Shown here: in pieces, positions 2,750-48,258 of the stretch | How the letters are laid out: each line of letters starts with the position of its first letter | Numbering within the stretch: position 1 is the stretch's first letter | Virus record (IMG/VR): IMGVR_UViG_3300031576_000070 | Coordinates: 1 to 49,496 of that record | DNA from: a virus | Strand: one strand, 5' to 3' | Length of the DNA: 49,496 nt | Position numbers and translations under genes: made by a program | Notes under the pieces: model-generated | Told to the model about the DNA's origin: nothing | The model's input: only the letters and a program-made list of their open reading frames with translations | The model's database searches: none

Positions 2750-4747
2750 GTGGCATGGCACCGTTTCGGCGACGTGGCCAACTACGTGGAACCATTTTGC
2801 GGAACGTGCGCCGTACTGCTTGCAAACCCCAGCCCGAAATACGAGTGCGTCAACGACGTGAACGGGTTCATTGCAAACTTCTGGCGGGCGCTGAGTAAAG
2901 ACGCTTATGCGGTGTTCCGGCATTGCGACCATCCTGTAAATGAGTGTTGCCCGGCCGGGATGATGATTTCTACCCCAAACGGAGACATCGCCATAGAACA
3001 CATTCGAGTAGGCATGATCGTCTGGGGAGAACATCAGGGTCGGATCGTTCCGACTCGCGTCATTGCAACCAGAAAAAGCGAGTCTGACGCGAGTGATTTA
3101 CGCAAAGTCGGAAGGCTGAGATTGACGGCTAATCATCCCGTTTGGACGACGAATGGATATGTTGACGCACACCTATTGACCCCAGGCATGAATATCGGCA
3201 TGATATGTACGAATGGGAGCAATGGAAAAACCTTGCGAAAGATGCGGCTTGGAATTTCGACCAAGACCAAGAGGCGGGAAGTATTGCTGCCGCGCATGTT
3301 CTTCGGCAGCACACCGTCATCCAGAGAAGACGTGCATTGTTTGTGGGGCGACTTTCTACCGACGACAAGGAACAAAGCATCAACGATGTTGCTCGCTAAG
3401 TTGCGGTCGGAAATTTGCTTGGAAGCACAGCGAGACAATGCCAAACAATTTGAGAGCAGCCTGGGCGGCAACAAAGACGACCGAAGCGCAAGCAAAAATT
3501 CGTCGTTGGGCATTATCGCCGGAAAATCCTATTTATCAACCAAAGGTCCGAAGGAAGGCGCTGATTGCACAACGAGAGAAGGGGTTCATAAACCTAAACG
3601 GCGGGAATGGAAGCGGTCTCAGTATGCCGCAAAGACTGCTTGCCGCAAGATTGGGCTGGGCTACCGAAGTCGTAATACGGACGAGATCGGGGACAGGAAA
3701 AGCTGTTCGACCATATCGGTACATCGCGGATATCGCGGACCCAATTTTGAAGATTGCGATAGAAGTCGATGGTCAAAGCCACAAAGCTATGGGAGTCATA
3801 ACTCGCGACGCCAAGAAGGATGCCGCCCTGCTCCGATTAGGCTGGAAAGTCCTTCGGTTCACGAATCGAGAAGTGAACGCGAATCTGGGGAAAGTGGTAT
3901 CTACGATCATGGACGCTGTGCGGTCTACAACTTCCAAACCGAAACCGAAAACTACTTCGCCGAAAACATCTTAGTCCACAATTGCGAGCTGCACGTTTGG
4001 GAGGCGTGGATGGTGGTGCAGGCCAAAAAGATGGACTTGGCGAACCGATTGGCCAACGATCCGCATTGGTACTCGGCGACGCTGGCGGGCCGCTGGGTGT
4101 GGGGCCAGTGCGCGAGCATTAGCGGAAACTGTGGATCGCAGAAAAGTGCGAAGCCGCAACTTACCAGCGCCAGAAGAATAGGCCGCCTTTCGCTGCGCGA
4201 CGCGGTGAAGGTGTCCCACGAAATTCCGTATCTAAGCCGCGGCGGAAAAGGCGTCCACCGTCCCTATCTGCACCGCGCGCGTGGCATTGACAACCAGCGC
4301 ATTCGCTCCGAGGGGCTATTGGAGTACCTGCAAGCGCTGGGGCAACGGCTTCGGACCGTGCGTGTGTGTTGCGGCGATTGGAAGCGAGTCGTCACCAATG
4401 CCTGTACGTGGCATGTAGGGCATCCGTGCGGGGTGTTCCTCGACCCGCCGTACAGTGAAAAAGCACAGCGGGACATGAGTCTCTACGGCCAGCACGACGA
4501 CGGCGACGTGGCCCACGAAGTCCGGGAATGGGCGATTGAGAACGGAAACGACCCGCGACTGCGAATAGCACTGTGCGGCTACGAAGGGGAACACGAAATG
4601 CCCGAGGGGTGGACCACGCACTACTGGAAGGCGAAAGGCGGCATGGCGAACACCGCCAAGAAGACGAACACGCAAGGCCGCAAGAACCGGCGACGGGAGA
4701 GAATCCACTTCAGCCCGCACTGCCTGCCGGAAATGAGACTGTTTTGA
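2750..4747 (+). CDS. dam: Dam-type DNA adenine N6-methyltransferase interrupted by an intein
   Basis: After removal of the intein (2945-3982) the exteins form a D12-class adenine methylase. The AdoMet motif YFGGK lies at 2720-2734, the typical NYVEPFCGTCAVLL and VNDVNGFIANFWRAL follow, the splice site joins PVNE to CELHVWEAW, and the catalytic DPPY lies in GVFLDPPYS. Position 2750 (GTG) is only the first standard start codon in this frame; it would drop YFGGK. The coupled upstream ATG at 2688 reads MPTLKAPFP and then stops at TAG 2715. A change of frame near 2714 would give MPTLKAPFPVAYFGGK, which looks like real family N-termini. So the gene is either frameshifted or recoded. The enzyme would methylate adenine in phage DNA, perhaps against host restriction. 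Confidence 0.85.
   Translation: MAWHRFGDVANYVEPFCGTCAVLLANPSPKYECVNDVNGFIANFWRALSKDAYAVFRHCDHPVNECCPAGMMISTPNGDIAIEHIRVGMIVWGEHQGRIVPTRVIATRKSESDASDLRKVGRLRLTANHPVWTTNGYVDAHLLTPGMNIGMICTNGSNGKTLRKMRLGISTKTKRREVLLPRMFFGSTPSSREDVHCLWGDFLPTTRNKASTMLLAKLRSEICLEAQRDNAKQFESSLGGNKDDRSASKNSSLGIIAGKSYLSTKGPKEGADCTTREGVHKPKRREWKRSQYAAKTACRKIGLGYRSRNTDEIGDRKSCSTISVHRGYRGPNFEDCDRSRWSKPQSYGSHNSRRQEGCRPAPIRLESPSVHESRSERESGESGIYDHGRCAVYNFQTETENYFAENILVHNCELHVWEAWMVVQAKKMDLANRLANDPHWYSATLAGRWVWGQCASISGNCGSQKSAKPQLTSARRIGRLSLRDAVKVSHEIPYLSRGGKGVHRPYLHRARGIDNQRIRSEGLLEYLQALGQRLRTVRVCCGDWKRVVTNACTWHVGHPCGVFLDPPYSEKAQRDMSLYGQHDDGDVAHEVREWAIENGNDPRLRIALCGYEGEHEMPEGWTTHYWKAKGGMANTAKKTNTQGRKNRRRERIHFSPHCLPEMRLF
2945..3982 (+). 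mobile_element. Intein in the adenine methylase (346 residues)
   Basis: Block A starts at Cys1 (2945): CCPAGMMISTPNGDIAIEH, followed by RVGMIVW. Block B is LRLTANHPVW with the TxxH pair T61 and H64. Blocks F and G read VYNFQTETENYFAENILVHN, ending in His-Asn followed by Cys+1 at 3983. All self-splicing residues are present. The flanking exteins rejoin to the family-typical PVNE|CELH. The middle of the intein, in this frame, matches no known fold. That stretch carries the endonuclease gene in another frame, yet the intein frame has no stop. Confidence 0.9.
3213..3974 (+). CDS. Zinc-finger Vsr-like (EDxHD-type) homing endonuclease nested out of frame in the intein
   Basis: The 253-aa protein has two N-terminal zinc knuckle pairs (C8/C11 with C26/C29, then C41/C44 with C60/C64), a basic linker, and a C-terminal nuclease fold: PYRYIADIADPILKIAIEVDGQSH, then RDAKKDAALLRLGWKVLRFTN. 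E184, D186 and H190 fit the Vsr-related EDxHD homing endonucleases known from phages and from intein-associated genes. It is read one frame away from the intein, and its stop TAG (3972-3974) lies inside intein block G. The start could be ATG 3213 or ATG 3222. It should drive homing of the intein into unoccupied methylase alleles. Confidence 0.85.
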   Translation: MGAMEKPCERCGLEFRPRPRGGKYCCRACSSAAHRHPEKTCIVCGATFYRRQGTKHQRCCSLSCGRKFAWKHSETMPNNLRAAWAATKTTEAQAKIRRWALSPENPIYQPKVRRKALIAQREKGFINLNGGNGSGLSMPQRLLAARLGWATEVVIRTRSGTGKAVRPYRYIADIADPILKIAIEVDGQSHKAMGVITRDAKKDAALLRLGWKVLRFTNREVNANLGKVVSTIMDAVRSTTSKPKPKTTSPKTS

Positions 4748-5281: not shown

Positions 5282-5476
5282 ATGACTGACAACCCGCACC
5301 GGCTTCCGTGGACAATGAAAACGTCGCCGTGGCGGTGTTTGTGGGACTCCGTTACTCCGTCACTTGCCCTTGCCGATTACCATGCTTTGTGCTGGCAGGC
5401 GTCTGGACGGCGCGACGTGGAACGAAATGCCGCTAAGCGGCGGAAAGGAATGAAATGTTACCAGGACTTGGACTAG
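5282..5476 (+). CDS. Small hypothetical protein, partly built from a duplicated gene end
   Basis: A 64-aa ORF with a ribosome site (GAAGGAAAAGCACA before ATG). Its middle (5353-5374) is a 22-base exact copy of 6195-6216, which is the reverse-strand end of the small membrane gene at 6202-6441. The residues there (TPSLALADYH) are thus by-products of an imported fragment. It overlaps the next gene by 22 bases. Function unknown. Confidence 0.45.
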   Translation: MTDNPHRLPWTMKTSPWRCLWDSVTPSLALADYHALCWQASGRRDVERNAAKRRKGMKCYQDLD

Positions 5477-7388: not shown

Positions 7389-7608
7389 CGGGGAACGCCT
7401 CCTCCGGCGGAGGGACCACGGTGGCCGCCGCTGCATCTTGCTCCACTCGCCGAATCATGTCACGGAGCATGGTCCGCACCGCCCGGTTGTAGCGCTGTTG
7501 CTGTGTCTCCGGGGGATCGACCTCTAAGGGGAAACGCGCGTTCAGAGCCGCAAGGCACCGCGCAAATATCGCATCCGACACCCCCAAGCGACTGACCATC
7601 GTCTGCAT
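7381..7608 (-). CDS. Small hypothetical protein (75 aa)
   Basis: A helical, soluble protein (RLGVSDAIFARCLAALNARF, then YNRAVRTMLRDMIRRVEQDAAAA) with a Pro-Glu-rich end. It lies between the tail fibre and the membrane cassette in a fully coupled series. No recognisable family. Confidence 0.55.
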   Translation of the reverse strand: MQTMVSRLGVSDAIFARCLAALNARFPLEVDPPETQQQRYNRAVRTMLRDMIRRVEQDAAAATVVPPPEEAFPDG

Positions 7609-7630
7609 AGTTCACCAACTCCATCATACC

Positions 7631-10069
7631 CTACCCCAAACGCACGATAAACCCGGTGCACACGAGATCGTCGGTCGTCGTGGCATCACCGGTCAGTTTA
7701 ATGACGATCGTCGCCGCATCGTCTTGGGCCAAGGACGTTGTTTGCGCCGTGTCCGTGAATTGGAACGTTCCAGACCCGGAGCCTACGAGCGTGACCCCAG
7801 CCCGCTGGACATCGAGGGCCTTACGACCCACGAAGGCGTGAATCATCCACGACGTATTGTTGGCAGCGGCCGTCGCGGTGAGAATGGCCACCGCGCCGAA
7901 GTACAACCGCAGCGTTTTGGAATTGGCGTTGTTCAGCGTGGTACCATAAGCGATGATTTCCACGAAATCGAGATTGGTATTGAGCATCGACGCCGGTAGG
8001 GTGTAGGTCTGTAACGGGTCCTCGCCCGCGCCGATATTGCCTCCCTCGGTAAAGCTCGCATAGAGCGTTACCGCCGCTCGCCCGGTGGCGTGGGGCAACG
8101 TGATGGTCTTGGTCGTTCCGTCCGGCATAACGGCCGCTTTTACGCTGATCGTGCCCCCAAAATCTCCGTCGTAGAAGTTGAAGCCCTGCCCGTCGCTGAC
8201 CAGCAGCCCGGCATTGAATTCCTGTTGACCCGAAGATACCCGCGTTCCGTCCATCCGCAGGTATTGGGTATGATCGTCATCGGCCAGCCCGAGCAGCGAG
8301 CCGTGATCCGGTTGTGCCCAAGTGGGTGCGGCGGATACCGCGCCCGTGCCGGTTTGCGAGAGGAACTTTTGGGTAGCCGTAATCTGACCGGCCAGCCTGA
8401 CGCTGTTGGTCCCGTCGTGATAAAGCACGTCGCCCAAGGTCGTGAGCGGGTCCAAGGCATCGAAAGCCGCCGTCACAGTCGTTTGACCCGTGCCCCCGTT
8501 GGCGACGGCCACCGTGCCCGTGATGGACAAAGTCGCGTCGCCATTGGCCCCGCCGTCCGCAAGGTTCAGCGGGGCCGAGGCTACCAGTCGCCGTTCACCA
8601 GACAGCGTTCCATCCAGTGCGAGGACGAGGTATTGTGCATTGGTGGGCGGTACGCTGCCGCTTGCCGCCGCGGTCAGCCGCCCTTTGGCATCCACCGTCA
8701 AATTAGTGTTGGTGTAGGAGCCGGGCGTAACCGCCGTGTTCGCAAGAGTCGTTGCCCCATCCCCTACGCTGGTCACGTCACCTGAATGATTGGGATGAAC
8801 GTAGTTGTTCGCCCCATCGGCGACGTTCAGGATCGTCCGCGCGGCGGCGGCGGCGATTTCTTCGCCCGGCCCGGCAGCCGCCGTATCGCGGCCAAAAAAG
8901 ACGTTGGTCTGGCTGGCGTGCATTTTTCCAACGGTGACAACATCGGCGGCAATCGTCGTTGCGTTGGAATCCTGCGCCGCGGTCACCTCTCCGGTCAGCG
9001 CTGCGCGTGCCAAAAGTGGGGTGGCGTCCACGTAAACCAGCGATACTCCGGCCATCGCCCCAACCGCGTCCTGCGCCTGTTCATCGGTGTAGCTGCCGAC
9101 CCCGGCCCCGGACCCGCGTTGCGTAAAGTAGTTGGCGCCGTCCGAGAAAATGCGAACGCCCTGATTGAGAATCAGAGCATAGGTAGGCAAGCCGTCGATG
9201 GTGCTCACCGTTGGCGTGATGGTCAGCGTTCCCGCCCCGCTGTTTTGCACATCGACGAACCATCCGTCCGGGAAGCTCGATCCGGCTTGCGGAAGCGTGC
9301 CCGCAATGGGCAGCACGTTGGAATGGGTGACCAGCTTACCTCGATCGCCGCTGACATAGGTGTAGGTGACTCCCGTTTGAGCATTTACCCGACGCCGGGC
9401 AATGGCGGTGATCGCGTTGCCACCATCGTCGTAGGTGAAATCGACGGTATCGGTGTCAACGAGCGCCGCCCCGACCGCGTCCTGGGCTTGCTCGTCCGTA
9501 TAGCTGGCACCCGTCGCATTCAGCGTCGTACCGGACATCGACAGGTTGGTGCCGAGAACGATCTCCTGCGCGACTCCCGCCCCGGCCGCGGAGCCACGCC
9601 CCAGCAGCCGAGACGCCGCAATAGAACCGATTTGTCCGACGGACAAGGAAGCCCCGGTGATAACCCCGGCATCGTTGATTTGGACCACAGAGCCTTTCAG
9701 TTGGCCAAAGGCCCCGTCCGCGCGAATGATGTCGTTGGAGTTCACGTCCACGCTCGGCGATCCACCGGCCACTTGTCCGCTGACGTTCATCAGGGTGAAG
9801 TCGGCGAGCTTTTTCCACTTCAAGGAGGCAATCGAATTGTCGGCGCATTCATAGATGTGCTTGTCGGGCGCCGGCGCTGCCGACGTGATCCATTTGGAGC
9901 CTATCCTTATGCCTTTGGTAATGTCGTCCTGATCGACACCGGACGTAATGGGCGGTGTCGTCTGATTGTAGGTGGAGAGCGGAACTTGGATACGCATTTC
10001 ATACAACGCGCGCACTATCTCGTGCAGGTCGTGTACGTTAGGATTGAAGGTCTGGGCGCTTCCACTCAT
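7631..10069 (-). CDS. Tail fibre protein
   Basis: The 812-aa protein has a virion-binding N-terminus (NPNVHDLHEIVRALYEMRI) followed by long low-complexity beta repeats. It contains VAVANGGTGQTTVTAAFDAL, the GGTGQTT element common in phage tail fibres, and repeated SYTDEQAQDAVGA segments (about residues 196 and 330). The C-terminus (GSGTFQFTDTAQT, DLVCTGFIVRLG) looks like a compact receptor-binding tip. Fibre trimers recognise the host surface. Its ATG at 10069 overlaps the stop of a preceding frame (ATGA). Confidence 0.85.
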   Translation of the reverse strand: MSGSAQTFNPNVHDLHEIVRALYEMRIQVPLSTYNQTTPPITSGVDQDDITKGIRIGSKWITSAAPAPDKHIYECADNSIASLKWKKLADFTLMNVSGQVAGGSPSVDVNSNDIIRADGAFGQLKGSVVQINDAGVITGASLSVGQIGSIAASRLLGRGSAAGAGVAQEIVLGTNLSMSGTTLNATGASYTDEQAQDAVGAALVDTDTVDFTYDDGGNAITAIARRRVNAQTGVTYTYVSGDRGKLVTHSNVLPIAGTLPQAGSSFPDGWFVDVQNSGAGTLTITPTVSTIDGLPTYALILNQGVRIFSDGANYFTQRGSGAGVGSYTDEQAQDAVGAMAGVSLVYVDATPLLARAALTGEVTAAQDSNATTIAADVVTVGKMHASQTNVFFGRDTAAAGPGEEIAAAAARTILNVADGANNYVHPNHSGDVTSVGDGATTLANTAVTPGSYTNTNLTVDAKGRLTAAASGSVPPTNAQYLVLALDGTLSGERRLVASAPLNLADGGANGDATLSITGTVAVANGGTGQTTVTAAFDALDPLTTLGDVLYHDGTNSVRLAGQITATQKFLSQTGTGAVSAAPTWAQPDHGSLLGLADDDHTQYLRMDGTRVSSGQQEFNAGLLVSDGQGFNFYDGDFGGTISVKAAVMPDGTTKTITLPHATGRAAVTLYASFTEGGNIGAGEDPLQTYTLPASMLNTNLDFVEIIAYGTTLNNANSKTLRLYFGAVAILTATAAANNTSWMIHAFVGRKALDVQRAGVTLVGSGSGTFQFTDTAQTTSLAQDDAATIVIKLTGDATTTDDLVCTGFIVRLG

Positions 10070-26042: not shown

Positions 26043-27167
26043 CTAAAGGGTCGCCACCCAGTTCTCGCGGGGCGAGCAACAGACCGTCTGCGTTTCCAGA
26101 TACCTTGCGTGCGTCACGTCCATCGGAGCAGATCGGTCCGGCTGGAACAGCGCGTCTTTCAAATTGAAGCCGCCGGAAGTCGCCATGTACCACGTATTCC
26201 AATTCAGCCCGAAGATCGGCGAACGATTGAGAGCGCCGTACATAAGAACGTCATCGAGCTGTGGAACGTAGTACATCGGAATTCGGAACACGGAGTTCTC
26301 CGCGAACCGGGACATCAGATCGCTGGTGTTTTGGTCGTTCTGCTGGCGAGCCATCTTGGCCCGCGCCACGACGTTGGAGATTCCGGTATACATCGCCTTG
26401 TCCGGCGGACCCTGAATCTTGTCGGGATGCTGCACCGGAGCGTCGAATTCCGTCTTCAAAACCGCAATGGCAATTTTGTCAATCAGCGCGTCGTTGAACG
26501 CGCTATACTGGAAGTTGTAATTTCCCCACATCGGATACGTGACGCGGCTCAGTCCGCCCGGCCCCGCGGTGTAGCTCGCGTGGTTGTTATTCAAAAAGCC
26601 GCCATCGCCGGAAAATGGCGCCGCATACGCAGGAGCGCCGTCGCCTTCCGGCTGACAAAAAATCCAATACCGAAGCGGGAACGCCGTTTGTTCGTCAGAG
26701 AACGTAGGCGGCACACCCCAACCCCACGTTTCAAACGAGTCCGCCCAGTCTTGATCGTCGCCGATCTTCCGAGCGGTCATCAAGTCCGTCAGTTCCTCCG
26801 GCCCTTTGCACGCCTCGGTCTCGCGCATGTTGATGGACCAGTGCGTACGGCACATACGCCGCGGGAGCCGCACTTGCTTCTGATAGTCCTGACGGACGAT
26901 ATTGATCGGCGTGGTTTCGCGGACCCACGAGAACGTGCTCCCCTTGGCTACCTGAACGTTGAACACGTATTCCGTACCGCCCGTGTCGCTGACGTGGTTC
27001 GGCATCCCGAATTTGAGCTTGTTTTTTTCGGCGTACTGCGCTCTACCCCGCATGGAAGGGAAGAACGTGTACTGCGTCTTCGTGTTGCTGATATTGACAA
27101 ACGTCTTCCGGTTGTAGTTCGGAATCGCCTGTTGCAGTAACCCCTCGTGGCTTTCCCACGTTGCCAT
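26043..27167 (-). CDS. Major capsid protein
   Basis: The 374-aa protein lies directly downstream of the scaffold gene. It begins with a helical N-arm (LQQAIPNYNRKTFVNIS), then a segment with aromatic strands (YVFNVQVAKGSTFSWVRETTPIN, VRLPRRMCRTHWSINMRE), a long spine-like region and a C-terminal end with FGLNWNTWYMATSGGFNLKD. Length and position match the HK97-fold coat proteins of tailed phages. The ribosome site on the minus strand (AGGAGTGAAAC before ATG) is strong, consistent with high expression. Confidence 0.8.
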   Translation of the reverse strand: MATWESHEGLLQQAIPNYNRKTFVNISNTKTQYTFFPSMRGRAQYAEKNKLKFGMPNHVSDTGGTEYVFNVQVAKGSTFSWVRETTPINIVRQDYQKQVRLPRRMCRTHWSINMRETEACKGPEELTDLMTARKIGDDQDWADSFETWGWGVPPTFSDEQTAFPLRYWIFCQPEGDGAPAYAAPFSGDGGFLNNNHASYTAGPGGLSRVTYPMWGNYNFQYSAFNDALIDKIAIAVLKTEFDAPVQHPDKIQGPPDKAMYTGISNVVARAKMARQQNDQNTSDLMSRFAENSVFRIPMYYVPQLDDVLMYGALNRSPIFGLNWNTWYMATSGGFNLKDALFQPDRSAPMDVTHARYLETQTVCCSPRENWVATL

Positions 27168-27176
27168 GTTTCACTC

Positions 27177-28154
27177 CTACAGGAATGGATTTCTTCCACC
27201 ACTGGCCGCCCATGCCTGTTTCATGGCCGCCAATCGCGCTTCATAATCGCCCGCCGGGTCTTCGGCGGGAGACGTGGAAGCGCCGGAAATCGAAGACCGG
27301 GGCACGCCGCGCGGCGCAACACCCGGCAGGGACTTGATTCCATTGCCTTGTCCGTTGCCTTTTCCTTTCCCGCCGATCGCTTGGTATGCGAGCCACCCGT
27401 CGCGGGTGGCTCGCTCATAGTCGATCAAATGGGCCGGAACGCCCTGAATGGTCGCGTTGGCGTGAATCATCGTAGCCACCTTGGACCATTCCGCGGACTC
27501 CGCGCTTCCTGGACGAATCATGGCCTGCGAAGGTAAACCAACCGTCTCAACGAGGCCGGGGACGGATTCCACGATCCGATCCCAAAACGCGGCCTGTTGC
27601 TGTTTGGTCGTTTCTCTCGTACTGGCCGCGCTTTGCGAAGCAAAGTTGGCCAATTGATCTATCTTGGAGTCCTTCTCGGCCAGACTCTTCTCAAACACCG
27701 CCCGCATCTGATTGAATTGGGCCACAATTTCCTTCAGCGGCGCCGCCGTCGCCGGGTCGATATCTTCCGACAAATTCAAGGCGAACTCGGGAAAGGCGGA
27801 CGCGGGCGGGGGCAGTACGTTCTGTGGAGCCTGAGCAGGCGGTTGCTCTCGCGGCTCGTTCTGCCTCGGCATCGACGCCATACGGCCAATAACCGCCTCA
27901 TACAACAGGCCACCGTCGGCAAACGAGTTAATCTGATCGTCGGTGTAGTAGACGGTCTTCGCCAACTCGACCAACTGCGGAGAAAACTTTGTGGGTGGCG
28001 GCGGAGGAGGCCCTTCGCTCGGCGAGGGAACAAATCGGCCGCTGTCGTCGCGGGGGCGGACGGCGGACGATTCCGAGGCCGCTTGAGTCGTAACAGGTGG
28101 GGCTTCCCCCACGGGAATCGCGGTGAACGGGGTCTCCAAGACTGCTTGTTCCAT
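27177..28154 (-). CDS. Head scaffolding protein
   Basis: The 325-aa protein has the composition of a scaffold: a disordered N-terminal half (SEGPPPPPPTKFSP, EPREQPPAQAPQNVLPPP), a central helical part (LKEIVAQFNQMRAVFEKSLAEKDSKIDQLANFASQ) and a Gly-rich C-terminal region (GGKGKGNGQGNG). It precedes the capsid gene, the standard order. It has the best ribosome site of the operon (AAGGAG, 6 bases from ATG), immediately behind an intrinsic terminator hairpin. Confidence 0.8.
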   Translation of the reverse strand: MEQAVLETPFTAIPVGEAPPVTTQAASESSAVRPRDDSGRFVPSPSEGPPPPPPTKFSPQLVELAKTVYYTDDQINSFADGGLLYEAVIGRMASMPRQNEPREQPPAQAPQNVLPPPASAFPEFALNLSEDIDPATAAPLKEIVAQFNQMRAVFEKSLAEKDSKIDQLANFASQSAASTRETTKQQQAAFWDRIVESVPGLVETVGLPSQAMIRPGSAESAEWSKVATMIHANATIQGVPAHLIDYERATRDGWLAYQAIGGKGKGNGQGNGIKSLPGVAPRGVPRSSISGASTSPAEDPAGDYEARLAAMKQAWAASGGRNPFL

Positions 28155-28166
28155 TCGATGCTCCTT

Positions 28167-28204
28167 AAAAAAAAGGGGGCCGTCGGATTACTCCAACGAC
28201 CCCC
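28167..28204 (-). terminator. Intrinsic terminator just upstream of the scaffold gene
   Basis: On the minus strand GGGGGTCGTTGGA (28204-28192) pairs over 13 bp (two G-U) with TCCGACGGCCCCC (28187-28175), with loop GTAA and an eight-T run (28174-28167). The scaffold ribosome site AAGGAG follows at once. No promoter fits between, so read-through or regulation is expected. Confidence 0.8.
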
Positions 28205-28293
28205 TGTAAAGGCCGCGACGAACAGGCGTCTTGCGGTTGCAACCGCTGTGCCTCGTCACGGGACCGCCGATTTCTCGACGGCCCCCTTTTTTT
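28168..28293 (-). promoter_or_regulatory. Attenuator-like leader with competing hairpins before scaffold/capsid
   Basis: An 18-bp perfect inverted repeat joins 28276-28293 with 28168-28185. In minus-strand RNA the first arm can (a) fold locally with the CGG/CCC segment after it (28260-28286), (b) pair with the terminator's 3' arm and U-tract and so dissolve the terminator, or (c) leave the terminator to form. Between the arms is a perfect palindrome GCGGTTGCAACCGC (28233-28246). This is the topology of a transcription attenuator. Confidence 0.6.
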
Positions 28294-28294
28294 C

Positions 28295-28372
28295 CTACTC
28301 TTCAATCATGCGTTTCGGCGCCTCGTTGTCAAGCGCTCGTACTTCGTCCTTGTCGAGTATCTGATAATTCAT
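28295..28372 (-). CDS. Possible 25-aa leader peptide
   Basis: ATG at 28372 opens MNYQILDKDEVRALDNEA and six more residues, ending with TAG at 28295, one base before the first arm of the attenuator-like structure. The codons resemble the phage's genes and the product is acidic. No ribosome site is convincing, so coding is uncertain, but the spacing suits a leader peptide that couples translation to RNA folding. Confidence 0.35.
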   Translation of the reverse strand: MNYQILDKDEVRALDNEAPKRMIEE

Positions 28373-28409: not shown

Positions 28410-28535
28410 TCAACCCTTCGTCCACCTCCGTATTAACTCCTCGATAATTCCACGAAGACAAAAAAGAGCGAAGATCGCAAGGATTGGCCAAGACGAAGAT
28501 AGAAACTCGGAGTAGCGGTCGAGTAGCAAAGTCAT
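28410..28535 (-). CDS. Small single-span membrane protein (41 aa)
   Basis: ATG at 28535 overlaps the stop of the 311-aa gene (ATGA). The peptide MTLLLDRYSEFLSSSWPILA continues into IFALFCLRGIIEELIRRWTKG: one hydrophobic span with a positively charged end. It sits between the head genes and the scaffold leader. Function unknown; the location would suit a small membrane or capsid accessory protein. Confidence 0.6.
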   Translation of the reverse strand: MTLLLDRYSEFLSSSWPILAIFALFCLRGIIEELIRRWTKG

Positions 28536-29831: not shown

Positions 29832-31559
29832 TCATGCGGCCATTGCTTCCTGCAGCGGTTGAGGCCGTCCGAACATGCGCATCAACTCCTGCATCTCCCC
29901 GGCGCCGCTGTTGCGGTCCTCGCGGACGTAATGCCCTTGCGGCTTCATCGCGTTCATGGGGGTTTCGCCCGGCCGCGCACCCATGAGCCGAGACAATTCC
30001 TCGGGATCCTGATTCAGGATCAGCGCGTCGTACAACTCCGGCAAATCCTTGTAGGCCGCAATCGTTACGGCAATAGCCTCCATGTCCAGACTTATTCCCT
30101 GGGCCGCCATCATCGGTGCATATTGATTGAGCAACTGCAAGGAACCCAGGAAATCCGCCAGCCGCCCGTCCGGTGTACGGGACCGGTAGCTGTAGGGTTC
30201 CACGTCGACCTCGAACGCCATGTCCTGAATCTGACGGCGTTTTTCGTAGGTCCAAGAGACGGGATACGACACGCCCGTCTTACCGATCGGCTTCCAAAGC
30301 TCCGCCTTCGTTTTGGGGTCGCGGATATTGAACCAAAAGGCGTCCTGGACGGCCTTTAGCACGAAAAGCCGCACAACCTCGCCCATGTCCTGCATGTTGG
30401 CAGCCGTCGCCTCGCCCAATAGCCGCTCCTGACCCAGCGTGTGCGCCGACGGCTGAAGGCCCAGTAATTGGTCCAAGCCGCCCGCCGCGTAACTGAAAAG
30501 CCGGCCAACCAACTCGGACATCGACACCGTATCCGGCGAAGCCCCGCCGACGTGCGTCCAGCGGGTCGGGCCGTTCTCCTGAAGAGCGCTCTGCAAGTCA
30601 GGCGACTCGAGGATTTGCTTCGCTTCCTCCTTTTGCGCCGCGGTGTACAGCAACACGCCCTTGGCGACCTGTTGCTGCCTCAACGCCTTCACCAACAGCA
30701 CGTTTCGGGCATTCGCCAGCCGATAGACGTTCGACATGGGCGACACGGGCCACGCATGGCCGGGCGGAGAACCATAGTGGAGCAATCGGATAAAACCATT
30801 CGGCGGACCGTTCCACACGTCCCCCATCAGCATCAACTCGGGCTGCTCGACCGGCCAAACGTACATGCGGTTGTCGGCACGGTCCAAAACCTGATACAAC
30901 TCGACGTAGTCGTACAACGAAGTCCGCATCCAGCCTTGAGCGGATTGCCAATTCGCCTTTTCGTCGTCCGGCTTAAAGTTCATGTAGGACGGACCGACCT
31001 TCGTCCGGGCCTGTGGGTCGTACAAGGGATGATCACGCACGTCAATCAATTTCTGAAGGATTTTCCGGCCAAGGTAGTCTGAATCATGCAGATTCCGGCA
31101 GTCCGCATCCCACACCAAATCGGGACAGGGTACGCTTTCCAAAACGAGTTTCTGACGCATCCCGCGTTCGGTGCCGACGTAGTCGGCGGTCATGCACAAC
31201 GCGCCGACTGAATACAGCGATTGATCCACGACTTCGCTGACCGTCCGGCCAAAGTCCGCCTCTTCGATCGTGCGGTTCAGGGCGATCACGGCGTCTTCGG
31301 CGAATGCCTTGTACTGGGGAACTCTCGTATTGGCCATCGCCCGCGGATTGCGCATGTACAGCCACCGAGACAGCGCACGGTGGGTCATCCAAAGCAAATT
31401 GAGCGGGGTTTCCGGGTCTTTGCCGATGGCGCGCGGATAGTACTGCCCCATCGCGGCGTCCACGAGCATCTGGTGAAGTTCCCGGTGCGGACGGGTACGC
31501 TCACGACTATGCCGCACACACTCCGTCAACCGCCGAAAATGTGGGTCCAGTACCGCCAA
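29832..31559 (-). CDS. Portal protein
   Basis: The 575-aa protein starts right after TerL in transcription order. It has the usual portal layout: an N-terminal wing region (QMLVDAAMGQYYPRAIGKDPETPLN, WMTHRALSRWLYMRNPRA), a beta-rich centre (VESVPCPDLVWDADCRNLHDSDYLG-type LESVPCPDLVWD), a helical clip/stem (MSNVYRLANARNVLLVKALRQQ) and a long C-terminal crown helix region. The dodecameric portal forms the DNA channel, packaging motor base and tail attachment. The call rests on length, position and pattern. Confidence 0.8.
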   Translation of the reverse strand: MAVLDPHFRRLTECVRHSRERTRPHRELHQMLVDAAMGQYYPRAIGKDPETPLNLLWMTHRALSRWLYMRNPRAMANTRVPQYKAFAEDAVIALNRTIEEADFGRTVSEVVDQSLYSVGALCMTADYVGTERGMRQKLVLESVPCPDLVWDADCRNLHDSDYLGRKILQKLIDVRDHPLYDPQARTKVGPSYMNFKPDDEKANWQSAQGWMRTSLYDYVELYQVLDRADNRMYVWPVEQPELMLMGDVWNGPPNGFIRLLHYGSPPGHAWPVSPMSNVYRLANARNVLLVKALRQQQVAKGVLLYTAAQKEEAKQILESPDLQSALQENGPTRWTHVGGASPDTVSMSELVGRLFSYAAGGLDQLLGLQPSAHTLGQERLLGEATAANMQDMGEVVRLFVLKAVQDAFWFNIRDPKTKAELWKPIGKTGVSYPVSWTYEKRRQIQDMAFEVDVEPYSYRSRTPDGRLADFLGSLQLLNQYAPMMAAQGISLDMEAIAVTIAAYKDLPELYDALILNQDPEELSRLMGARPGETPMNAMKPQGHYVREDRNSGAGEMQELMRMFGRPQPLQEAMAA

Positions 31560-31568
31560 CGTCTCACC

Positions 31569-33485
31569 TCAGATCAAAAGCTTATCCCGTGCCCGCTTGG
31601 ATTCCAAGAGCTTCAAGTGCGCGTAGCTTCCGAACGGCGGAATCTCCGCGTCGCGTTGCGGCCGATTGCGGCGGTTGGACAATTCCATGCAGGCCAATAC
31701 CGTCGCCATCGTCCGATCCCCGTGGTTCTCGCGTGCCCCGCTGGGGTCCACGACGCCCTTGCCGGACGAGTGGAACGGGGGGCCGCCGGTGGGATTGTGG
31801 TTGTAGTGACGCATTTCATTCACCGTGTCCACGCTCCGCTCCAAATACCGGCCTTCCCAGAGCATCGTTTCGTGCAAGCCCCACGGCCGACGCAATTCAT
31901 CCCTACTCCCGGCCTTGAGATACCCCGCCCGCACCGTCCCGTCACGGTTTGAACGATGATACACGTTGTCGTGCAATCCGTACTCCTCGGTCAAAAGACG
32001 GCCAAACTCATTGCCGCAACCGCCGGCGTCCCAGTTGAGCCAACCATGCTCATCCGTGCCGCAAAAAAAACGAGACGCGGCGACGAACAACTCGGCGAAC
32101 CGAGGGACGGGCATCCCGTGGGTCGCGTATTCGGCGACCTTGGCGCACTGCAACTCACTCACCACGACAATCGCAGAATTGCTCGCTCCGCGGCCTTCCG
32201 CGTCCACGCCACCGGCCGCAACGTCAACGCACAGGATGTAGCGGTCCTCGCGGACCGGACGGCCGGCGGCATCCCAACGCAGCCAGAACTTCCACCGGCC
32301 GCTCGCCTGCGGAATGAACCCCGTCACCCACGGACCCGTCGGACCCGTTCGATAATCCAACTCGCCGACATACGCCGGATCACGAACGGTGCCTTCTTTC
32401 GTCCCAACCCCCAACATGATGTCGAACAATTCCTTGGCGTAATAGGCGCCGGTCGCCTGGGACTCATCCGCCCAAATCTCATTGTTGATGTGTACGGGGT
32501 CGTATCCGACCCGCGCCATTTCCTTTTCCAGCCACGGAGACCAGCGGCCACGATCCCCCTTATCCGGGTCAACCGTCATGCCTTCGGTATGCGCCGGATT
32601 CATCCACCATTCGAGCCGAATTTGAGGGATCGGCGAACGGCCCAGCATCGCGTGGGCCGTGCTCGGACCGTTCGGACTACTCCACCAAATGTGACAGTCG
32701 CTCGATTGGCTCGAAGAACCGATGATCTCGTATCCGTGGTCCGTGTGGGCGTGTTCGTCAAACCCGATCCCGTAATATCGTCCGCCGCGGGCGAATTTCG
32801 GACTGGCGGAGGCCCCCTCGATCAACCCGCCCAGCTCCGGATTGACGATTCTCATGAACGTTCGCACCGGCTGCGTTCTGGGTACGTACCCTTCCGGCCA
32901 AAGCCAACTCGGCTGATTTAGGTGGATGAAATCCACCTTGGGGAGCAATTTGCTCCACTGGCCGCCAAGCCCGCCACCCTTGTCGGAGTCCCGCGTCGAC
33001 CCGTCGACCTCGTCCGCATTGCGGCTCCCAAGGCAGAACTGCAACATGGGCATGAAGTGCCATCCGTGCTCAAAGAGCACGATCACGAACCACGTGAACC
33101 CCATGTCTCGAGGCTTCAAGCCCCGGCAATCCGTCTGGCCGGAAAACCCCCACCACGGATGGCCCGGAATGGCCCGCTTGTCGTGCAGACACTTCCATAG
33201 GAGCGTCACACACTCGACTTGAAAATCATGCAAGAGAAAAGGAACCGGCTTCGGATCGCCCTTGGCCTGAAAAATGTACACGAACGTGGCGGTGTAGAAG
33301 AGTAAGTCCTCGCGGCACATCTTCTTGACCAGGGCACGATCACGAGCACTGGTCAGGCCGCGCATCTTGGACCGAAACAGACGGTTGGCTTCCGGCTCCA
33401 GCGGAACCTTCCCGGTCATGTAATGCGGAAAGTACGCAAGCTGTCGGCCCTCTAACGTGCTGTCGATGATTCCCCATCGCGACAA
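31569..33485 (-). CDS. terL: Terminase large subunit (packaging ATPase-nuclease)
   Basis: The 638-aa protein has an N-terminal ATPase: a Walker-A-like loop KPRDMGFT at residues 124-131, Walker B GIGFDEHA at 239-246, and DCHIWWSSPNG after it (coupling region). The nuclease domain begins YILCVDVAAGG with D421, continues LNWDAGGCG with D486 and ends GDRTMATVLA. The P-loop lacks the usual GK[ST]; such loops with a shifted basic residue occur in terminases (K/R upstream). It cuts concatemers and pumps DNA into proheads through the portal. Confidence 0.9.
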   Translation of the reverse strand: MSRWGIIDSTLEGRQLAYFPHYMTGKVPLEPEANRLFRSKMRGLTSARDRALVKKMCREDLLFYTATFVYIFQAKGDPKPVPFLLHDFQVECVTLLWKCLHDKRAIPGHPWWGFSGQTDCRGLKPRDMGFTWFVIVLFEHGWHFMPMLQFCLGSRNADEVDGSTRDSDKGGGLGGQWSKLLPKVDFIHLNQPSWLWPEGYVPRTQPVRTFMRIVNPELGGLIEGASASPKFARGGRYYGIGFDEHAHTDHGYEIIGSSSQSSDCHIWWSSPNGPSTAHAMLGRSPIPQIRLEWWMNPAHTEGMTVDPDKGDRGRWSPWLEKEMARVGYDPVHINNEIWADESQATGAYYAKELFDIMLGVGTKEGTVRDPAYVGELDYRTGPTGPWVTGFIPQASGRWKFWLRWDAAGRPVREDRYILCVDVAAGGVDAEGRGASNSAIVVVSELQCAKVAEYATHGMPVPRFAELFVAASRFFCGTDEHGWLNWDAGGCGNEFGRLLTEEYGLHDNVYHRSNRDGTVRAGYLKAGSRDELRRPWGLHETMLWEGRYLERSVDTVNEMRHYNHNPTGGPPFHSSGKGVVDPSGARENHGDRTMATVLACMELSNRRNRPQRDAEIPPFGSYAHLKLLESKRARDKLLI

Positions 33486-35251: not shown

Positions 35252-35281
35252 GCAAATAGTACATCTATTTGCATCAAATAG
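35252..35281. promoter_or_regulatory. Operator-like cluster of three CAAATAG half-sites
   Basis: CAAATAG (35253-35259), CTATTTG (35265-35271) and CAAATAG (35275-35281) alternate in orientation and form two overlapping perfect palindromes, with spacers of 5 and 3 bases. The cluster ends 12 bases before the -35 box of the rightward promoter: a likely repressor or activator site. Confidence 0.6.
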
Positions 35282-35293
35282 GACGGAATTGTC

Positions 35294-35322
35294 TTGATAA
35301 GCACCTTTTAGCATGGTATAGT
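35294..35322 (+). promoter_or_regulatory. Strong sigma70-type rightward promoter
   Basis: -35 TTGATA (35294-35299, 5/6), 17-bp spacer, -10 TATAGT (35317-35322, 5/6). Start expected near 35329. It drives the early block. Confidence 0.8.
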
Positions 35323-35340
35323 TTTGTCGTAAGGCTAAAG

Positions 35341-35372
35341 TGGCCCGCGTTCGGTGGATACGAACCGGGCCA
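35341..35372 (+). other. 5'-UTR hairpin of the early transcript
   Basis: TGGCCCGCGTTCG (35341-35353) pairs with CGAACCGGGCCA (35361-35372) over 12 bp with a single bulged base and a 7-nt loop. No T-run follows. It may protect the 5' end or bind a regulator. Confidence 0.55.
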
Positions 35373-35401
35373 TTGGCCAAAACCGTGAAAGGGTTTTGAC
35401 A

Positions 35402-39652: not shown

Positions 39653-39991
39653 TCAGGCTCTGTGCTCTGTAGACTTGACCACCTGTCGTTGCCAAGCATG
39701 CCGGCGGCGTTTCCCTTTGCTCAACAGCCTGGCTCCGTATCCCTTGAATTCGTTGGCTATTACGTCCCCGCAATCGTTGCACGCGAATACCCGGTGCACC
39801 GTATCGCGCGAGATGTCGGAAGCAATCGGGGTCCGGGCAGCGTTGTCCGGGCTGGGAACCGAGGAAAAAGCCAGCCTGTGCCCGGACCCCGTCGCTGTGT
39901 GCTTGTCCTGTTTCACAAAAAACGCTCCTCGGTTCCGACCACAAGGGCCGAAATCGAATGGTCGTGACCGCATCAAAACCCGCCGACTCAT
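39653..39991 (-). CDS. Possible small zinc-knuckle protein on the minus strand
   Basis: The 112-aa frame starts at 39991 with ATGA overlap to a 9-codon ORF behind the minus promoter at 40.05 kb. A GTG near 39913 after GAGGAG would give about 86 aa. The end reads HRVFACNDCGDVIANEFKGY, then GARLLSKGKRRRHAWQRQVV, with one CxxC knuckle and a basic tail. Possible DNA-binding regulator; overlapping frames make this uncertain. Confidence 0.4.
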   Translation of the reverse strand: MSRRVLMRSRPFDFGPCGRNRGAFFVKQDKHTATGSGHRLAFSSVPSPDNAARTPIASDISRDTVHRVFACNDCGDVIANEFKGYGARLLSKGKRRRHAWQRQVVKSTEHRA

Positions 39992-40031
39992 GGCCGGAAC
40001 CGAAAAGCGTTCTCCATGCGATCACGCCTTG

Positions 40032-40060
40032 AATATACGCTATCCTTCCCGCTCCTGCAA
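40032..40060 (-). promoter_or_regulatory. Leftward promoter, CTTGCA-N15-GCGTATATT type
   Basis: On the minus strand: -35 TTGCAG (40060-40055), 17-bp spacer, -10 TATATT (40037-40032, 5/6). It shares CTTGCA and GCGTATA at identical spacing with the rightward promoter 160 bases away. Confidence 0.5.
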
Positions 40061-46894: not shown

Positions 46895-47164
46895 ATGCTG
46901 AACCAGACGGAAGAACGTGCGCAATACTGGGAGTGGGAAGCAAACAGAATGCGCAAGGCCATTGAACGCTGGGTGCACAGATACGGCAATGAACGTTGCC
47001 ACGAAGAGGACTCGCGTCTCGCCAGGGCCATAGACACCAAGCTATTTGATCGCCAGCGTACCAAAGATTTTAAGATGTCTGCGTCCGAATTTCGCAAACA
47101 ATGCCATCGGTATATTGCTCGTGAGTGCCGGGCGGGCCGGTTGATCGACGATCGGAAAAAATGA
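46895..47164 (+). CDS. Basic helical protein, 89 aa
   Basis: MLNQTEERAQYWEWEANRMR continues with KAIERWVHRYGNERC, and later SEFRKQCHRYIARECRAGRL. Rich in Arg, Glu and Trp, all helical. Coupled to the Gp37/Gp68 gene by ATGA at 47161. No family is recognised. Confidence 0.55.
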   Translation: MLNQTEERAQYWEWEANRMRKAIERWVHRYGNERCHEEDSRLARAIDTKLFDRQRTKDFKMSASEFRKQCHRYIARECRAGRLIDDRKK

Positions 47165-48258
47165 GCACCAACAGCAAAATCGAATGGACCAACGTGACCT
47201 GGAATCCCGTGGTCGGCTGCACGCGGGTTTCGGCTGGGTGCGATAACTGCTACGCGGTCCGCGTGTCGCATCGCTTGGAGTCGATGGATCAGAAAGCTTA
47301 CGCCGGCCTCACCCGCGTGAACGGGAAGGGTCAGCGACATTTCAACGGCACGGTGCGGACGCTGCCCGAGCGGCTAAACGAGCCGCTGACGTGGCGGAAA
47401 CCGCGGATGATTTTCGTCAACTCGATGAGCGACTTGTTTCACGAGTCGGTGCCTTTTGAGTTCATCGGCGACGTGTACTTTACGATGTCGCGTTGCCAAC
47501 AACACACGTTTCAAGTTTTGACCAAGCGTCCAGAGAGGCGAAGAGAGTTCTTTGCCTGGTATAAAACTGCCGGACTACCCACGGGATTGTGGGATAACGT
47601 ATGGGAGGGCATTTCTGCCGAGGATCAACAGACGCTGGACAAACGGCTGCCGCACTTGCTGGCTACGCGGGCGGCGGTGCGGTTCCTGTCGCTGGAGCCG
47701 TTGCTGGGACCGATTGATCTGACCCGCTGCGACCACCGAGCCGGGGAATTCATCGACGTGCTGCATGGTCAGCGCACCAACCACGGCGATGCGACCTACG
47801 AAGATTGCCCCACGATCGACTGGGTCATCGTCGGCGGCGAGAGCGGACCGAAGGCCCGCCCCATGAATCCCGAGTGGGCGCGTTCGATCCGTGACCAGTG
47901 CGTTGCCGCTAGTGTGCCCTTCTTTTTCAAACAGTGGGGAGAGTGGGCGCCAACGGACAGTGACGATTCGCGATTCGACGGCAAGGATTGCGTGCAAGTC
48001 GCGGAAGAGGACGGGGAAGTCGGGCCCCTCAATGTTCGATACGGCCCCGTCGTGCGGTCCAAAGATGGTTCGACGAAAAACGCTTCCCCGATGTCTCGGA
48101 TGGGGAAAAAGGCTGCGGGCCGCCTTTTGGACGGTCGGACGTGGGACGAAATGCCGCAACGCGCTGGGAAGAAACAGCAAACAGAGAACGGTGCCGCTTT
48201 AATTTACACTCCTTTTTACGCTTCTTTTATGGGATTCGATGAGATTGATGCGGAGTAG
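47161..48258 (+). CDS. Phage Gp37/Gp68 family protein
   Basis: The 365-aa protein opens with the family signature KIEWTNVTWNPVVGCTRVSA, then GCDNCYAV: Cys20, Cys27 and Cys30 form a CX6CX2C cluster reminiscent of radical-SAM iron-sulfur sites. Later motifs are NSMSDLFHESVP, FQVLTKRPER, FLSLEPLLGPI, WVIVGGESGPKARPM and FFFKQWGEW, all typical of PF07505 proteins of phages and bacteria. The fold suggests a TIM-barrel radical enzyme. Its reaction is unknown; modification of nucleobases is a hypothesis. Confidence 0.9.
   Translation: MSTNSKIEWTNVTWNPVVGCTRVSAGCDNCYAVRVSHRLESMDQKAYAGLTRVNGKGQRHFNGTVRTLPERLNEPLTWRKPRMIFVNSMSDLFHESVPFEFIGDVYFTMSRCQQHTFQVLTKRPERRREFFAWYKTAGLPTGLWDNVWEGISAEDQQTLDKRLPHLLATRAAVRFLSLEPLLGPIDLTRCDHRAGEFIDVLHGQRTNHGDATYEDCPTIDWVIVGGESGPKARPMNPEWARSIRDQCVAASVPFFFKQWGEWAPTDSDDSRFDGKDCVQVAEEDGEVGPLNVRYGPVVRSKDGSTKNASPMSRMGKKAAGRLLDGRTWDEMPQRAGKKQQTENGAALIYTPFYASFMGFDEIDAE

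Follow-up and report, generated by a model that had tools for sequence, protein, structure and literature searches.

A candidate promoter-proximal conditional terminator ahead of the presumed scaffold and capsid genes of a phage

In phage lambda, a promoter, a short terminated RNA (6S), and an intrinsic terminator (tR') stand before the late structural genes. Attenuators of the trp type carry an open reading frame (ORF) upstream of four arms that can pair as 1:2, 3:4, 2:3, and 1:4. Lambda Q attaches to DNA within the late promoter, at a sigma-dependent pause, and renders RNA polymerase resistant to terminators (PMC6606751). In Pseudomonas aeruginosa, AlpA is loaded at a promoter and lets RNA polymerase bypass an intrinsic terminator downstream (PMC9371919, PMC7969949). 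The put RNA of phage HK022 is a nascent RNA with two stem-loops near the promoter, upstream of terminators (PMC9378689).

We analyzed a stretch of viral DNA of 49,496 nucleotides (the window), which is a complete IMG/VR viral record. The leader that precedes its presumed scaffold gene resembles the lambda PR'/tR', AlpA, and put RNA systems in layout. We do not claim membership in any of them, because no cognate factor was identified. As at lambda PR'/tR', a promoter-like site, a short RNA, and an intrinsic terminator are found, at the sequence level, ahead of late genes. Unlike in lambda, no Q-like gene was recognized in the record, and the terminase and portal genes lie upstream of the leader unit. 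The layout that the leader shares with AlpA is a promoter followed by an intrinsic terminator downstream, but no AlpA-like protein or site was identified in the record. The put RNAs differ in being about 70 nt long and in serving early genes, whereas the terminator of the record is immediately adjacent. With trp-type attenuators, the leader has in common four arms with such pairings, an upstream ORF, and a first structural gene preceded by an intrinsic terminator. As tested, however, it fails two defining features of that class: at equilibrium, no ribosome state lets the antiterminator win, and no leader peptide with regulatory codons overlaps arm 1 (the upstream ORF has no Shine-Dalgarno sequence, and the related locus L121 has no such ORF).

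The late-gene region and its predicted leader RNA

The record ends in a direct terminal repeat of 127 bp, so the genome is about 49.4 kb long. On the minus strand, the late genes follow the order terminase, portal-like gene, 113-aa gene, 324-aa ORF, a gap, presumed scaffold gene, and major capsid protein (MCP) gene (Table 1). The scaffold gene was named by position only. The match of the MCP to its NCBIfam model (E value of 3e-18) is under the curated cut-off, which the L121 homologue exceeds. Searches with single proteins (MCP, terminase, portal, and 324-aa ORF; including IMG/VR) found no close relatives, DNA and protein searches of phages and plasmids returned only distant terminase matches and a few chance-level ones, and DNA or protein searches of genome contigs found no close relative of the record. 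The pairings therefore have no close homologues in which base-level covariation might show.

Elsewhere in the record, a gene for a Dam/D12-type adenine methyltransferase (2750-4747, plus strand) contains an apparent intein, as judged from an N-terminal PF02086 match (residues 9 to 51), a weak Hint match (residues 79 to 134; PF14623, below cut-off), an HN/C junction at about residue 411, and the motif DPPY at 565. A DUF5131 protein (47125-48258, plus strand; Pfam E value of 4e-100) also gave a weak match to NCBIfam TIGR04471 (radical SAM mobile-pair protein), below the cut-off.

Table 1. Coordinates of the late genes and leader features in the window
Feature	Position	Strand	Description
Terminase	31569-33485	minus	
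Portal-like gene	29832-31559	minus	Named by position and similarity to the L007 counterpart
41-aa ORF	28410-28535	minus	Contains a hydrophobic stretch; its ATG and the 324-aa ORF stop overlap; no coding-like codon usage
ORF25	28295-28372	minus	25 aa, MNYQILDKDEVRALDNEAPKRMIEE; stop TAG at 28297-28295; no Shine-Dalgarno sequence; codon usage coding-like
Sigma70-like promoter, TTGACA-16-CATGAT	28305-28332	minus	10/12 consensus match, inside ORF25; predicted start at ~28298
Predicted structured leader RNA	28168-28298	minus	~131 nt, three hairpins
Arm a	28276-28293	minus	AAAAAAAGGGGGCCGTCG; A7 tract and 5' half of hairpin 1
Hairpin 1 (H1)	28260-28285	minus	11 pairs, GAAA tetraloop, -20.7 (local fold)
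Hairpin 2 (H2), central	28215-28259	minus	Self-complementary apical GCGGUUGCAACCGC
Hairpin 3 (H3), intrinsic terminator	28174-28205	minus	14 pairs, GUAA tetraloop, -27.4 kcal/mol alone
Arm b'	28168-28185	minus	CGACGGCCCCCTTTTTTT; terminator 3' half and U tract; perfect complement of arm a
Terminator U8 tract	28167-28174	minus	
Shine-Dalgarno sequence of scaffold gene	28161-28166	minus	AAGGAG
Presumed scaffold gene	27177-28154	minus	325 aa; directly precedes the MCP gene, position conserved in relatives
MCP	26043-27167	minus	374 aa; NCBIfam NF033394

A first-pass annotation of this DNA had described a 25-aa ORF (here ORF25) ending one base before an 18-nt arm, which could pair perfectly with the 3' half and U tract of an intrinsic terminator directly ahead of the scaffold ribosome site and could also fold locally. 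Every part of this description (leader ORF, arms, and terminator) was found in the sequence, together with the competing pairings. A single G separates the stop codon from arm a, arm a is fully complementary to arm b', the local fold is H1, and H3 with its U8 tract is, by sequence and fold, an intrinsic terminator in front of the ribosome site. The central hairpin and the promoter-like sequence inside ORF25 are additions to that description.

The a:b' pair is the sole perfect 18-nt inverted repeat in the whole record, and a scan of both strands of the genome gave no strong hairpin with a T tract other than H3. The 141-nt fold reached -72.3 kcal/mol, compared to -47.7 ± 3.9 in shuffles (z = -6.4), and the leader region ranked first for structure among 140-nt segments genome-wide after GC correction. 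Because G-U wobbles turn into mismatches on the opposite strand, its fold is less stable (-59.0 versus -72.3 for the late-strand RNA), and a bidirectional terminator was rejected on this difference. Also rejected was an origin of H1 and H3 by duplication on the basis of sequence similarity alone, as 18% of random hairpins were equally similar when the shared G run and tetraloop were fixed. No Rfam family reached the gathering threshold for the leader region, no further copies of the leader were found in the genome, and a search of genome contigs with the DNA pattern of the paired arms gave no match. The hairpin region was not coding-like in any of the three late-strand frames. Among the next most structured segments of the genome were 39897-40036 (minus strand; z = -3.9) and 35261-35400 (plus strand; z = -3.4), the latter overlapping a region of promoter-like sites on both strands near 35.0 to 35.3 kb.

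Promoters were scanned by consensus match to sigma70-like hexamers. Sites as good as the one inside ORF25 have a density of 0.06 per kb of strand, and 0.1% of shuffles of its 60-nt stretch contain one. RNA from this site is predicted to begin at the foot of the hairpins, a position at odds with the earlier idea that the leader ORF belongs to the same transcription unit.

The codon usage of ORF25 was exceeded by 0.2% of wrong-frame chunks, and 40% of shuffled gaps contain an ATG ORF of 25 aa. Judging by codon usage, ORF25 may be translated, but translation would not make it a sensor. It contains no run of regulatory codons and ends before arm 1. Equilibrium (as opposed to kinetic) folding gave the terminator a probability of 0.996 in the unmasked RNA and 0.9999 in each of three masked states: a ribosome placed on the ORF25 stop codon, arm a blocked, and both a and a' blocked. 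A ribosome stalled at the UAG leaves H1 folded (computed P of 0.9997) because too little of arm a is masked. The 18-nt arm had been proposed as the antiterminator, but the pairing probability of a:b' is only ~0.001 to 0.004, and as b' emerges, a:b' would need to outcompete the adjacent b:b'. When arm a is masked, nascent chains form a':b before b' has emerged. This makes a':b the better antiterminator candidate, if there is any, and one that may act kinetically.

Leaders in distant relatives

A profile search identified 53 loci with distant relatives of the MCP, some of them mutually near-identical. Start codons in these loci were called mechanically, and base-by-base reading was limited to L007, L021, and L121. 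In most relatives with readable upstream genes, a small gene ends at, near, or over the scaffold start; the 113-aa gene of the window is its likely counterpart, with weak sequence similarity. Among the relatives examined apart from L007 and L121, the upstream gene mostly abuts or overlaps the scaffold gene, and no terminator was found there. Some others (e.g., L102) have a gap before the called scaffold start, in which no strong hairpin or terminator was found. The sole examined relative with a terminator found directly before the scaffold gene was L121.

The MCP of L121 is 25% identical to that of the window. At positions 7467 to 7672, before the scaffold gene, this locus carries an analogous leader, again of three hairpins and ending in a U6 terminator (fold z of -4.5). 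It was found over 725 kb of searched sequence with a covariance model made from the window RNA as its only sequence (E value of 0.007, a rough figure) and also in an unfiltered search; much of the model score at L121 comes from a generic terminator. A match at L091 scored slightly above that at L121 (18.4 bits). It aligns to the opposite strand with deletion of most of the model, at a terminator away from the scaffold gene, and is probably just a terminator. When the RNA model was run over 27 complete records of relatives, it gave no match and missed even the directly found L121 site; this search is hence uninformative.

The 5' arm of H1 in L121, GGAGGACC, is fully complementary to GGTCCTCC, the 3' arm of the terminator; an 8-nt complement of that arm occurs somewhere in 2% of shuffled leaders. 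As to conservation of the pairings, which the first-pass annotation suggested checking in relatives, L121 keeps the match between the H1 5' arm and the terminator 3' arm with bases that differ from those in the window. As for a leader ORF, L121 has only ATG-TGG-TGA, nothing comparable to ORF25.

In the same place before the scaffold gene, a single strong hairpin is present in L007, with no U tract behind it. Promoter-like sites lie just upstream of the hairpins in both L007 (TAGACA-18-AATAAT, 10/12) and L121 (TAGACG-16-CATAGT, 8/12; about 0.03 expected by chance in that short stretch). The L121 site alone means little, because sites of at least 8/12 also precede the scaffold gene in several leaderless relatives. 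The palindrome GGGGTAnnnTACCCC occurs nine times in the 23.5-kb contig of L007 (G001), several times at gene boundaries, including before the portal gene and before the scaffold gene. In L121, terminator-like hairpins were also found at 5317 and 9829, directly before the portal gene and just after the MCP gene, so its late operon contains several of them.

Readings of the leader

We tentatively read the leader as a promoter-proximal conditional terminator that would gate transcription of the scaffold and capsid genes, at a probability of roughly 0.4. In this model, the host RNA polymerase would start at ~28298 or arrive from the upstream terminase and portal genes, make the 131-nt three-hairpin RNA, and normally stop at H3. 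Some polymerases would pass H3, leakily or after alteration by a factor or the nascent RNA, and continue into the scaffold, capsid, and further late genes. A factor like Q or AlpA might decide readthrough, as might the nascent RNA, a protein bound to the repeated hairpin, or plain leakiness. The matching stems of H1 and H3 could serve a common binding partner or form a second fold (a:b' plus a':b) that removes the terminator.

The computed features are the fold and position of a terminator-like sequence, that sequence itself, a sequence resembling a promoter, and the similar layout of a distant relative; we infer promoter activity, termination efficiency, and regulated readthrough. The distance from the U tract to the scaffold ATG is 12 nt, so no promoter fits after the terminator, and scaffold transcripts must therefore cross H3, provided that H3 terminates in the host. 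The conditional terminator is further supported by the uniqueness of H3 in the genome, by a promoter-like site (10/12) lying upstream at a suitable distance, by the presence of a promoter-like site in both L007 and L121, the relatives found to have a hairpin-bearing gap there, and by the analogous L121 leader with its complementary H1 and terminator arms. Against it, the full layout was found only in L121, where the promoter is weak and the model match partly generic, the L007 hairpin has no U tract, and the upstream gene abuts or overlaps the scaffold gene in most other relatives examined. Pfam recognized no antitermination protein in the record, in which most genes have no family match at all.

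The alternative that survives best, although we regard it as unlikely, is a passive and unregulated element: a partial terminator, or a 5' hairpin with a U-rich spacer, that would adjust dose, protect the mRNA after processing, or mark a module boundary. The L007 hairpin at the same place, with no U tract, is consistent with such an element, as are the core palindromes repeated along the L007 contig and the L121 terminators before the portal gene and after the MCP gene. The T7 gene 10 leader likewise has the order hairpin, U-rich stretch, and ribosome site. However, a passive role leaves H1 and H2 unexplained, along with the sharing of stems between H1 and H3 in two phages, and a terminator ahead of the capsid genes would reduce capsid relative to portal.

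Slightly less credible is a stand-alone, trans-acting phage small RNA (sRNA) that lies before the scaffold gene by chance while the late transcript reads through it. The unit would be complete, with a promoter, a 131-nt RNA, and a terminator with a U8 end. Moreover, the 113-aa gene and the scaffold gene, adjacent in most relatives, are here separated by the 324-aa ORF and the RNA, in the manner of inserted accessory elements. The lack of an Rfam match and of a second copy in the genome speaks against an sRNA. The layout also recurs before the scaffold gene of L121 with a different sequence, which points to a scaffold-tied role, and for this reason we favor regulated readthrough.

We consider it improbable that the leader works as an RNA switch in which the H1 and H3 stems would re-pair into one rod (a:b' plus a':b), dissolving the terminator and letting a phage factor set scaffold-capsid transcription. 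Unassembled scaffold protein acting on the leader would be an example of such a factor, after the idea of P22-type scaffold autoregulation; a literature search on P22-type scaffold autoregulation found no relevant paper in the collection searched. The rod lies ~3 kcal/mol above the three-hairpin fold in the window (-69.1 versus -72.3) and ~6 kcal/mol above it in L121 (-59.2 versus -64.9), and the a:b' match is retained in both with different sequence. By our own reading of the folds rather than a tool result, the wobbles assignable at aligned stem positions of both phages belong to a' and b, the inner arms, and a:b' is wobble-free. This counts as weak support, because the pair was noticed for a:b' being perfect.

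Ribosome-mediated attenuation by translation of ORF25, as the first-pass annotation envisaged, is poorly supported and the least probable reading: its parts stand in a fitting order, the codon usage of ORF25 is coding-like, and masking of arm a permits a':b in nascent chains ahead of b', but the terminator kept a probability of 0.996 to 0.9999 across all states tested, the UAG-stalled ribosome fails to open H1, and ORF25 has neither a Shine-Dalgarno sequence nor a run of regulatory codons, is without a comparable ORF in L121, is of a length often met in shuffled gaps, and harbors the promoter-like sequence.

If the leader is a conditional terminator, a terminator within the late operon would set the dose of scaffold and capsid in this lineage, beyond what operon position or translation provides. 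Together with L121, it would then offer a testable repeated-hairpin leader and a possible RNA switch for capsid assembly genes.
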